This document shows positions 19,297 through 24,093 of a DNA stretch of 30,439 nucleotides, piece by piece. This DNA is from a bacterium (lineage in GTDB: Bacteria > NPL-UPA2 > JAGMAN01), in NCBI GenBank assembly GCA_023130215.1, contig JAGMAN010000068.1, forward strand, positions 1 through 30,439. The letters run 5' to 3'. Made by a program: the position numbers and the translations under genes. Numbering within the stretch: position 1 is the stretch's first letter; each line of letters opens with the position of its first letter. The notes under the pieces are model-generated. The model saw only the letters and a program-made list of their open reading frames with translations, did no database searches and was not told where the DNA came from.

Positions 19297-20571
19297 CTAA
19301 ACCCAACCACGAAGTTTCATCGCTTCAACAACACGTCCAACAGCAACAACATAAGCAGCCTGCCGCATGTTTATGCCGGACTTTTTAGAAGCATCCAATA
19401 CAGAATAGTATGCAGTAGTCATTTTCTTATCTAAACGTTGGTAAACTTCTTTTTCATCCCAGTAGTACATATAGAAGTTTTGAACCATCTCAAAATATGA
19501 GACTGTTACTCCGCCAGCATTGCATAAGAAATCGGGTATCACATGGACACCTTTTTTATACAGAATATCATCCGCTTCCGGTGTAGTTGGGCCATTGGCT
19601 AATTCAGCAATAATCTTAGCTTTAATGTTTGTAGCATTCTTTTCTGTGATGACATTTTCCAGAGCTGAGGGAATAAGTATATCCACATCAAGTTCCAGGA
19701 GTTCTCCATTGGAAATAGCTCTGGTATTTGGGAAATTGATCACCGAACCTGTCTTAGCTTTGTGTTCACGAACTGCTTCCGGGTCAATGCCCTCCTTGCT
19801 GAATATTCCTCCTTTAGTGTCACTGACAGCTACTATCTTAGAGTCAAAGAGAGTTTTACCGCGGTATCCTGCATAATATCCAGCATTCCCATAGCCCTGG
19901 ACGGCAACGGTAGCTTTTTTAAGGTCTATGCCACATTCTTTTGCGGCTTCACCAATGGTATACCACCCACCTTGAGCCGTTCCGTCATCGCGTCCAGCAG
20001 AGCCACCAAGGCAAAGCGGTTTACCGGTAATGATACCAAATTGATTCTTCCCGGCAATCTTTGAGTACTCGTCCATCATCCAGGCCATTATTTGAGGATT
20101 TGTGTAAACATCAGGTGCTGGAATGTCTTTGTCTGGTCCAATGAACTGCCACATAGCTTGTATATATGCCCGGCTTAAGCGTTCCAACTCACCCTGTGAC
20201 ATCTCCTTAGGATTGCAGATTATCCCACCTTTAGCTCCTCCAAGAGGCAGGTCCAAAAGAGCACATTTCCAGGTCATCCAGGCCGCAAGCGCCCGCACTG
20301 TATCTATTGTTTCATCAGGATGAAATCTTATGCCTCCCTTTGTTGGACCTCTGGCATCGTTGTATTGCACACGAAACCCCTTAAAAACCTTAATCTTGCC
20401 ATCATCCATCTTTACTGGAATAGAAACATGCAGTTCCCTCACCGGCTCTCTTAAAATAGCGTGAATCTCAGGCTCCAATTTCAACATCTTCGCTGCCCCA
20501 CCTAACTGTGCCTGGGCAATGCGAAATGGATTTGTCTCTAAAATCTCTTTAGATTCAGTTATTCTTACCAT
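19297..20571 (-). CDS. gdhA: Glutamate dehydrogenase
   Basis: Interconverts glutamate and 2-oxoglutarate plus ammonia, so it sits at the nitrogen-carbon junction. Residues: [11 protein letters not shown] (Lys79), [10 protein letters not shown] (catalytic Lys114), [19 protein letters not shown], the NAD(P) loop [19 protein letters not shown] and [17 protein letters not shown]. Length (424 aa) is typical of the short hexameric type. GlxxxG is replaced by GYGNAG, normal for this class. AAGGAGG stands 6-7 bp before the ATG. A 190-nt leader carries a promoter, two six-base-loop hairpins and a terminator (20682-20796), so expression is probably controlled by transcription antitermination. Confidence 0.95.
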
Positions 20572-20603
20572 GGTTTCCTCCTTGACGAGTATTTGTTTTC
20601 TAC

Positions 20604-20633
20604 CGTATGGGAAATTATATAATTTCCCATACG
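20604..20633. promoter_or_regulatory. 30-bp perfect palindrome in the gdhA leader
   Basis: The 15-base arm CGTATGGGAAATTAT is followed directly by its exact reverse complement, with no loop. It lies between the terminator and the gdhA SD. It may be an operator, a hairpin that stabilises the mRNA end, or a repeat remnant. Confidence 0.6.
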
Positions 20634-20681
20634 ATAGTAAGAAATTGCGAGGCGATAGCCGAGCTTTCTTGTTCCTCCAAC

Positions 20682-20725
20682 AAAAAACGCCCTTGCCGCC
20701 TAAAATGGGCGGAACTTCAAGGACG
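20682..20725 (-). terminator. Intrinsic terminator in the gdhA leader
   Basis: Transcribed on the minus strand. CGTCCTTG (20725-20718) pairs with CAAGGGCG (20695-20688) with one G-U pair. An inner stem CCGCC/GGCGG has a seven-base loop, and TTTTTT follows at 20687-20682. It lies downstream of the gdhA promoter, so it terminates the leader itself as well as any read-through from guaA. Confidence 0.75.
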
Positions 20726-20761
20726 TCTTTGTCCGCTTTACCGTCAACACAACTCCGTGTC
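20721..20761 (-). promoter_or_regulatory. Tandem six-base-loop hairpins (candidate ANTAR recognition element)
   Basis: Hairpin 1 is GACAC-GGAGUU-GUGUU (20761-20746), with G at loop position 4 but G instead of A at position 1. Hairpin 2 is GGAC-AAAGAC-GUCC (20734-20721), with A at position 1 and G at position 4, as required in known ANTAR targets. A 12-nt linker separates the cores. The 3' arm of hairpin 2 is also part of the terminator stem, so hairpin 2 and the terminator exclude each other. Confidence 0.6.
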
Positions 20762-20767
20762 TTTTAA

Positions 20768-20796
20768 ATTATGACACATTCCTCCCGCTTTGTCAA
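20768..20796 (-). promoter_or_regulatory. Near-consensus sigma70 promoter of gdhA
   Basis: On the minus strand TTGACA (20796-20791), exactly 17 bp, CATAAT (20773-20768). The predicted start near 20761 is at the base of hairpin 1. The -35 lies 10 bp downstream of the guaA-like stop. Confidence 0.75.
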
Positions 20797-20806
20797 ATTT
20801 TAAATT

Positions 20807-21745
20807 TTATATATATTCAATTGTGCTTGGTGGCTTTGGGGTTATATCAAAGAGAACCTTTACCACCTGGGGGATCTCCTTTATAATCCTATCCCTGATC
20901 CTTTCCAGGATCCTCCACGGAACCCTGGTAACGGATGCCGTCATTGCATCCTTACTCTCTACCGACCTGACTGCTATAATGTTGCCAAAAGACCTTTTTC
21001 CTTTTCTTATGCCTGTAGCCTTATCGTTCAATAAAACAGCCAACGCCTGAAATGGTCGCAGTTCCTTAATTTCCTCTTCCACTATCTCCGTAGCCCGTCT
21101 TAAAATCTTGACTTTCCGAGGTGTCACCTCTCCTATTATTCTGGTTGCCAACCCGGGCCCGGGGAAAGGCATCTGTTTATAAACCCGAGGGGAGAATCCC
21201 AATTCCTTGGCCACTTGCCTCACCTGGTACTTAAAAATTTCCCGCAGAGGCTCCACTACCTTAAAGCCAAAGCGTTTTTCGGGGTCAATGCCTATCTGCT
21301 TTAAGATATTATGCTGAGTCTTGATCTTTCCTTTGGTTTCAATAATATCAGCAGCGATGGTGCCCTGAATTAATGATTTCACTTTATTTTGCTTAACTGC
21401 CTTACCCAGCGTCTTATAAAAGAGATGCCGGAAGACCTTTCGTTTCTCTTCAGGATCTTCTTTTCCTTTTAAAGCCTTGAAGAAATCTTTCTGTACATTT
21501 AAAACTTTTACATTTATGCCAAATGGCTTGAGCTCCTCTCTCACCCTCTTTTTATCACTATCTCTCATCAGACCATCGTCTACAAAAAGTATAACCGCTC
21601 TTTTGCCCAATGCCTTGTGTGCTAACAGGGCACAAGCCATACTATCAACTCCACCAGATGTAGCTACCAATGCCCCTCTATCTCCTACTTCTTGTTTTAT
21701 CTCTTCTAACTTTTCACTGATGAATCGCTTTGCCTGGATTTTCAT
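20807..21745 (-). CDS. Stand-alone GMP-synthase-type ATP pyrophosphatase (GuaA C-terminal part)
   Basis: 312 aa, resembling the PP-loop plus dimerisation part of GMP synthase without the glutaminase domain, as in the two-subunit archaeal enzyme. Seen: PP-loop TSGGVDSM (about 29-36), FVDDGLMR, QGTIAADIIET, QMPFPGPGLATRIIGEVT and a C-terminal KPPSTIEYI. In classical GuaA these read SGGVDSS, GTLYPDVIES and KPPGTIEWE, so the substrate-binding places are divergent. It may be the B subunit of a split GMP synthase, or a paralog aminating another nucleotide with ammonia. Its ATG overlaps the hisF TGA (ATGA), a tight coupling. No glutaminase subunit gene is in the window. Confidence 0.78.
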   Translation of the reverse strand: MKIQAKRFISEKLEEIKQEVGDRGALVATSGGVDSMACALLAHKALGKRAVILFVDDGLMRDSDKKRVREELKPFGINVKVLNVQKDFFKALKGKEDPEEKRKVFRHLFYKTLGKAVKQNKVKSLIQGTIAADIIETKGKIKTQHNILKQIGIDPEKRFGFKVVEPLREIFKYQVRQVAKELGFSPRVYKQMPFPGPGLATRIIGEVTPRKVKILRRATEIVEEEIKELRPFQALAVLLNDKATGIRKGKRSFGNIIAVRSVESKDAMTASVTRVPWRILERIRDRIIKEIPQVVKVLFDITPKPPSTIEYI

Positions 21746-23089: not shown

Positions 23090-23314
23090 CTACACCGCTT
23101 CAACCTTCTTGACTTGAGGAACCTTGGATTTAATAGCACTCTCAACCACACCTGCCAAGGTCATCTGAGCTGCAGGGCAGCCAGAGCAGCCTCCGGTTAA
23201 TTTCACTTTGACTAGACCGTTATCAGCCACCTCAACCAACTCTACATCTCCACCATGCGTTGCTAACATCGGCCTTACCTGCTCACTAAGCACCTTTTCA
23301 ATCTCCTCTTGCAT
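23090..23314 (-). CDS. NifU C-terminal domain (NFU-type) Fe-S carrier
   Basis: 74 aa. A short NFU protein that carries or transfers an [4Fe-4S] cluster bound between two subunits through the CxxC motif, here GGCSGCPAAQMTL (Cys43, Cys46). The N-terminal VRPMLATHGGDVELVEV is typical. It has no N-terminal scaffold domain, so it is a carrier rather than a primary scaffold. SD GAGGGGGT about 9 bp before the ATG. It sits between the GAF-ANTAR and VIT-like genes in one direction. Confidence 0.93.
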   Translation of the reverse strand: MQEEIEKVLSEQVRPMLATHGGDVELVEVADNGLVKVKLTGGCSGCPAAQMTLAGVVESAIKSKVPQVKKVEAV

Positions 23315-23397: not shown

Positions 23398-24093
23398 CTA
23401 CTTCCGTAATTCAAAAGATAAAATAATGGCCTCGGCAACCTCGCGCATGGACTTTCGGCTGTCCATGCTCTTTTTCTGTATCCGACGATAGGCTTCTTCT
23501 TCAGTCAAACCACTTTCTTTCATCAGTATACCCTTGGCTTTCTCTGCAACCTTGCGCGTCTCCAGCTCTTCTTGAATAACCTTACTCTTTACCATCAACT
23601 GGGTATTCTCAATAACAATGGCTGCTTGATTGGCTACCGCAGTAAGGGTTTCAATTTCGGCTTTAGTAAATCGGTGGGGCGTGGAAGTGTAACTATTTAT
23701 TACTCCCACAACCTTACCTTTCACCTTCATGGGAACACTCAACATGGAACAAAGTCCAAGTTTCTTAGCTAACCTTTTCTCCTTGTATTTTGGCTCTTTT
23801 GAGACATCCGAGATTTTCATGGGTTTCTTCTGCTGAGCCACAATGCCGACAATTCCTTCTCCTAATTTTAAGGTCCTTTCCCTGATATATTCCTCATCTA
23901 TAGCCTGAGTAGCTCGCAACCTCAACTCCTTTTCCTCTAAAAACCAGAGGGAGCAAATCTTTGAGCCCATCACCTCTGCAGTTACCGTAACTATTAGACG
24001 CAGTATATCGTCAAGATAAAGGTCAGAGACGATGGTCTTGCTTATCTCCTGCAAGGCCTTCAGCCGCTTAGCGTATGTTGTTTGGGGAGACAA
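23398..24093 (-). CDS. GAF-ANTAR RNA-binding antitermination regulator
   Basis: 231 aa. The GAF sensor (about residues 15-160) shows LDDILRLIVTVTAEVMGSKICSLWFL, LGEGIVGIVAQQKKPMKISDV, MLSVPMKVKGKVVGVINSYTS and the closing LTAVANQAAIVIENTQL. The ANTAR domain follows (about 170-228: RKVAEKAKGILMKESGLTEEEAYRRIQKKSM...MREVAEAII). ANTAR proteins such as NasR, AmiR and EutV bind paired six-base-loop hairpins in leader RNAs and prevent termination, often in nitrogen metabolism. The start is TTG, chosen because GGAGGAGG precedes it and the coding sequence begins SPQTTYAKRLKALQEI. The likely target is the gdhA leader 2.7 kb downstream. The GAF ligand is unknown; no partner kinase is in the window. Confidence 0.9.
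   Translation of the reverse strand: MSPQTTYAKRLKALQEISKTIVSDLYLDDILRLIVTVTAEVMGSKICSLWFLEEKELRLRATQAIDEEYIRERTLKLGEGIVGIVAQQKKPMKISDVSKEPKYKEKRLAKKLGLCSMLSVPMKVKGKVVGVINSYTSTPHRFTKAEIETLTAVANQAAIVIENTQLMVKSKVIQEELETRKVAEKAKGILMKESGLTEEEAYRRIQKKSMDSRKSMREVAEAIILSFELRK

Follow-up and report, generated by a model that had tools for sequence, protein, structure and literature searches.

We propose that the leader of gdhA, the glutamate dehydrogenase gene, in the window analysed here (the whole stretch of 30,439 nucleotides, contig C102 of a 1.01-Mb assembly that is 90% complete) is an ANTAR-type transcription antitermination switch, with a GAF-ANTAR protein encoded about 3 kb from it as the predicted partner. 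Judging from sequence, we assign this reading a probability of about 0.86. The evidence comprises the anatomy of the leader, in which a hairpin and an intrinsic terminator exclude each other, the recurrence of this arrangement in relatives, the pairing of GAF-ANTAR and gdh genes in genomes, and the conservation of RNA-contacting residues in the protein. The original prediction, which had described the gdhA leader as such a switch, is thus supported by leader anatomy, relatives and gene pairing.

The leader is located past the guaA-C stop codon, within the 235-nt guaA-C/gdhA intergenic region (Table 1). Its promoter consists of TTGACA (20796–20791), a spacer of 17 nt and CATAAT (20773–20768), with a TG preceding the -10 element. 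The two hairpins that follow, P1 and P2, carry the loops GGAGTT (DNA letters; 20756–20751) and AAAGAC (20730–20725). An ANTAR leader is defined by a pair of hairpins, each with a stem of 3 bp or more and a six-base loop; the stems of P1 and P2 each contain at least 4 bp. Both loops have G at position 4; A at position 1 is found in P2 and not in P1, where G1 takes its place. The linker of 12 nt falls within the 5–12 nt given for eut linkers in the main text of PMC3369931. In the terminator, CGTCCTTG (20725–20718) pairs with CAAGGGCG (20695–20688) around an inner CCGCC/GGCGG stem and T6 follows (20687–20682); the arms may also be written as CGUCCUUG/CAAGGGCG, with the same inner stem and U6 after it. 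Bases 20725–20721 are common to P2 and the 5' arm of the terminator, so that the two structures are mutually exclusive. The promoter, the loop sequences and their separation, the full fit of loop 2 to the ANTAR consensus and of loop 1 at G4 only, and a terminator reusing the 3' arm of P2 and ending in six U had all been predicted, and all are present on the minus strand.

Table 1. Positions of the leader elements, neighbouring genes and related hairpins. Positions refer to the window unless a locus is named.
Feature	Position	Strand	Remarks
Sigma-70-type promoter TTGACA-17-CATAAT	20768..20796	(-)	11/12 matches, extended -10
Hairpin P1, ACAC-GGAGUU-GUGU	20747..20760	(-)	G4 present, G1 replaces A1
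Linker P1–P2	20735..20746	(-)	12 nt, counted between 4-bp stems
Hairpin P2, GGAC-AAAGAC-GUCC	20721..20734	(-)	A1 and G4, AC/GU closing pairs
Intrinsic terminator	20682..20725	(-)	Overlaps P2, U6 end
gdhA, glutamate dehydrogenase	19297..20571	(-)	Predicted controlled gene
guaA-C, GMP synthase ATPase/C-terminal subunit	20807..21745	(-)	Upstream neighbour
GAF-ANTAR gene	23398..24093	(-)	Predicted antiterminator; GGAGGAGG precedes the TTG start
Seven-base P1 hairpins of relatives	L149:6014-6030, L038:4874-4890, L223:1010-1026, L224:901-918, L142:6056-6040		

Two further features of this region were observed. The upstream GMP synthase gene (20807–21745) encodes the ATPase and C-terminal part only, without a glutaminase domain; the same-genus genome G001 encodes both such a shortened GMP synthase and a full guaA. 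A near-perfect 38-bp palindrome, CTACCGTATGGGAAATTATATAATTTCCCATACGATAG (20600–20637), lies downstream of the terminator and ahead of the gdhA ribosome site; its core occurs once in the genome, and it may represent an operator or else an insertion.

The full leader folds with an MFE of -31.9 kcal/mol (z = -3.3). At -29.1 kcal/mol, the terminator form exceeds the P2 form (-18.9 kcal/mol) in stability by about 10 kcal/mol. Termination would therefore be the default state, and P2 would have to be held by a bound protein. ViennaRNA favours an extra G-U pair closing loop 1. A consensus terminator scanner run on the leader missed the terminator, presumably owing to an asymmetric internal bulge in its stem. 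When the 235-nt intergenic region was dinucleotide-shuffled 20,000 times, the full arrangement appeared twice. The same arrangement scanner found no match in 5.6 Mb of shuffled related loci and seven in 976 kb of real loci. Five of these are distinct, namely four gdhA leaders (the window, L038, L040 and L054) and one glutamate synthase leader beside gdhA (L035).

These results bear on the possibility that the terminator merely ends a hisF-guaA-C operon, with gdhA transcribed from an unrecognised promoter or by incidental read-through from the identified one, and with the hairpins arising by coincidence. Terminators at operon ends are common, and the element lies directly behind guaA-C. However, the promoter stands downstream of guaA-C and ahead of the terminator, the minus strand past the terminator yielded no promoter-like site, the arrangement almost never arises in shuffled sequence, and it stands ahead of gdhA in genomes with different upstream genes. 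We consider this explanation highly improbable.

The recurrence of the element was investigated by scanning the upstream regions in 98 relatives and in 80 named contigs encoding this gdhA. An element with an overlapping terminator precedes gdhA in L038 (genome G008), L040 and L054 (Atribacteria by title). In L035 (Candidatus Aerophobetes Ae_b3a), the gdhA leader, read by eye, contains three consecutive six-base loops, of which the last lies within the terminator. Matches to glutamate dehydrogenase put the window's genome close to Candidatus Aerophobetes, the enzymes of L035 and the window being 79% identical; this placement draws on that one gene together with the ANTAR protein, and certain contigs with archaeal MAG titles score equally high. 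The element is missing from most scanned gdhA loci, the archaeal loci among them, and no leader is found directly ahead of gdhA in G001. Two candidates were not counted: in L046 (Omnitrophota by title), two six-base loops are present and the terminator misses P2, and L039 has a single hairpin only.

Across an alignment of 14 P2 hairpins, 91% of cells are paired and three of the five pairs vary at both positions, compared with 31–53% of cells paired in slid controls; many of these hairpins were picked for forming hairpins and the counts lean towards structure, and we take the covariation as sequence-level support rather than proof. For P1, the five dual elements of a clade model seeded with ungapped alignments include three pairs changed on both sides. 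Compensatory changes are thus seen in 14 and 5 sequences, respectively, partly picked for hairpins. The conservation of both hairpins in relatives, proposed as a test of the original prediction, is borne out: they recur ahead of gdhA, together with overlapping terminators, and their stems are substituted yet still pair.

The P1 hairpins of the five dual elements and of a glnA leader in G008 carry A1 and G4 in a seven-base loop, a size outside the published six-base ANTAR definition. Such loops (AACGUUA, AAGGUUA, AAUGUGA) each stand ahead of a six-base P2 loop. A1 is also found in P1 of L040, of L054 and of the second L035 leader. A covariance-model check, which had been suggested for the leader, did not identify it. 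An Rfam 15 scan at gathering and permissive thresholds gave no relevant match and, as far as it shows, Rfam 15 offers no ready-made model for this element; our own clade model, R2, did not recover the window site. Another model built from two sequences (R1) was discarded as too narrow; it scored the window site at E 2.6.

As had been predicted, a GAF-ANTAR protein is encoded on the same strand as the leader. A GAF domain is followed by an ANTAR domain (Pfam E about 1e-21); the ANTAR domain scores 76.5 bits against a Pfam cut-off of 27.3. No other ANTAR protein was found in the genome assembly. A gapless alignment to EutV was read against the crystal-structure contacts in PMC8934654; the residue mapping assumes that the PDB chain numbering runs two ahead of that of the paper, which fits all named residues. 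Most RNA-contacting residues are kept (Arg142, Lys143, Lys147, Lys149, Glu160, Tyr164, Met172 and Arg175), while Arg168, Asn173 and Arg177 are replaced by Gln, Asp and Ser. Directly downstream of the GAF-ANTAR gene, a small NifU-like (CxxC) open frame (23103–23313) is followed by a gene for a VIT-family membrane protein.

In the EutV crystal, Tyr164 stacks on the flipped G4 of the loop, and A1 is without protein contact (PMC8934654), which bears on loop 1 of the window, where G4 is present and A1 is replaced by G1. We treat A1 as a consensus preference rather than a protein contact and call the window site divergent. With G4 in both loops, an exclusive terminator and a linker of fitting length, and with A1 missing from loop 1, the leader is a divergent member of the known class. 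It might instead be a decaying relic, in which P1 has diverged and an unresponsive switch mostly terminates or leaks. The G1 in P1, the failure of R2 to score the window site in its genome and the G001 gdhA without a leader directly ahead are in keeping with such decay. We judge it unlikely, as P2, the terminator, the U-run, the promoter and the GAF-ANTAR reading frame are all intact, G4 is kept in P1, and the position that was lost is the one that makes no contact in the EutV crystal.

The genomic neighbourhoods of relatives link GAF-ANTAR genes, leaders and nitrogen genes. Of 22 relatives that carry an ANTAR gene, 5 have one no more than 1 kb away from gdh, where chance would give 0.06; four of the five proteins are GAF-ANTAR and one is a response regulator (G066). 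In L035, the order is GAF-ANTAR (62% identical to that of the window), leader, gdhA, two tandem leaders and glutamate synthase. G008 contains glnA, nadE, glnB, gdh2, GAF-ANTAR, leader, glnA2, glutamate synthase genes, leader and gdhA; its glnA leader, which was outside the model seed, scores E = 5.7e-4. A leader and GAF-ANTAR precede gdh in G074 and glutamate synthase in G035. G002, of the same genus as the window, has GAF-ANTAR, glnB, gdh, glutamate synthase, hisH and guaA in a row, and its GAF-ANTAR is 89% identical to that of the window; this gene (L146:3457-4167) has an apparent frameshift in its ANTAR end, which could be an assembly error. In G072, GAF-ANTAR adjoins gdh, and no clear element was found there.

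In G001, gdhA ends a row of genes (nuoE, nuoF, ferredoxin-like, glutamate synthase, argG, hisF, guaA-C, gdhA) that is headed by an ANTAR element. The element stands ahead of the nuoE/nuoF-like genes, followed by glutamate synthase (L223:1010-4225), which suggests that electron supply and ammonium assimilation are co-controlled in this organism. A second G001 element, also outside the seed, precedes hisH-guaA (E = 1.3e-5). Elsewhere in G001 (L224:900-1090), three tandem ANTAR-like terminators follow purF, and the next open frame begins well beyond them. A search for nuoE and hisH in G000 found neither.

These neighbourhoods also weigh on a different account of the leader, as an attenuator run by an undescribed riboswitch or by an RNA-binding protein other than an ANTAR protein. 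Its merit is that ANTAR binding to the leader rests on prediction, that loop 1 is off consensus and that no Rfam family identifies the leader. On the other hand, loop 2 and the AC/GU closing pairs match an ANTAR site, and related leaders directly adjoin GAF-ANTAR genes, which makes this account very unlikely.

A scan of the window's genome with R2 and the pattern ACAAAGNNGT gave no further convincing site; an R2 match on contig C52 was rejected as it lies antisense to a transporter-like gene and has no terminator. With queries from relatives, neither glutamine synthetase nor glutamate synthase was found in the 90% complete assembly. Because of this, gdhA may be the main ammonium entry of the organism, within the limits of an assembly of that completeness. 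A second, distant gdh-like gene is located on contig C69. We put at even odds a wider scheme, in which gdhA, glnA, glutamate synthase and hisH-guaA form a regulon for ammonium assimilation that GAF-ANTAR proteins control, in this phylum and neighbouring ones, through leaders that often have a seven-base P1 loop, the circuit in the window's genome being reduced to gdhA alone. A role for gdhA as the main ammonium entry would be consistent with a circuit that has shrunk to a single target.

Taking the leader as an ANTAR-type switch, we infer that this GAF-ANTAR protein binds this leader, that binding activates gdhA, and that the GAF domain supplies the signal. RNA polymerase would start from the promoter at 20796–20768. 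By default, the more stable terminator would form at 20725–20682, and transcription would stop before gdhA. Once activated, presumably by a GAF-domain ligand reporting nitrogen status, GAF-ANTAR would capture the emerging hairpins in turn, first P1 and next P2, by way of the flipped G4 in their loops. With 20724–20721 held in P2, the terminator would be blocked and gdhA transcribed. Counted against this reading are the G1 and the extra G-U fold of loop 1, the G001 gdhA without its own leader, the changes at Arg168, Asn173 and Arg177, and the single target found in the genome.

According to the main text of Ramesh et al. (2012; PMC3369931), ANTAR targets include PII, transporters, nitrogenase and the synthases for glutamate, glutamine and arginine, and at the time the ANTAR site was defined, GAF-ANTAR had no characterised example. 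That main text makes no mention of glutamate dehydrogenase. When ANTAR was searched for together with gdhA or glutamate dehydrogenase, the papers that came up dealt only with expression, redox or nitrate regulation, and no pairing was found in them. This agrees with the original prediction, which knew of no described ANTAR-gdhA pair. Supplements of PMC3369931 aside, both the gdhA target and the pairing of a GAF-ANTAR protein with a target thus appear undescribed in the literature searched. GAF-ANTAR proteins gain a predicted target, and glutamate dehydrogenase, the ammonium-capturing enzyme, would join the genes under predicted ANTAR control, in uncultured lineages on whose nitrogen regulation there has been little work. 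Leader and protein are both short and self-contained, which makes it possible to rebuild the pair in vitro.

The mechanism itself is already known from the eut, nas and ami systems. The eut leaders of Enterococcus faecalis, controlled by EutV/EutW, share with the window two six-base-loop hairpins, the overlap of P2 with a terminator, G4 in both loops and a linker within 5–12 nt, as described in the main text of PMC3369931 and in PMC8934654; tandem copies are a further common trait, seen in relatives of the window. They differ in that EutV is a phosphorylated response regulator (REC-ANTAR) whereas the window protein is a GAF-ANTAR, in serving ethanolamine genes rather than gdhA, and in the P1 hairpin, which lacks A1 in the window and has a 7-nt loop in several relatives. 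The ANTAR elements of Desulfotomaculum, Pelobacter and others likewise act on nitrogen targets, including glutamate and glutamine synthases and PII, with several elements per genome, but glutamate dehydrogenase is not among the targets in the main text of PMC3369931. In NasR (nasF) and AmiR (amiE), as predicted here, an ANTAR output domain acts on a leader terminator, and in NasR it is likewise joined to a sensor domain. The sensors differ, with NIT in NasR, separate amide sensing for AmiR and GAF in the window protein, and so do the targets, which are nitrate and amide genes for NasR and AmiR and gdhA in the window.
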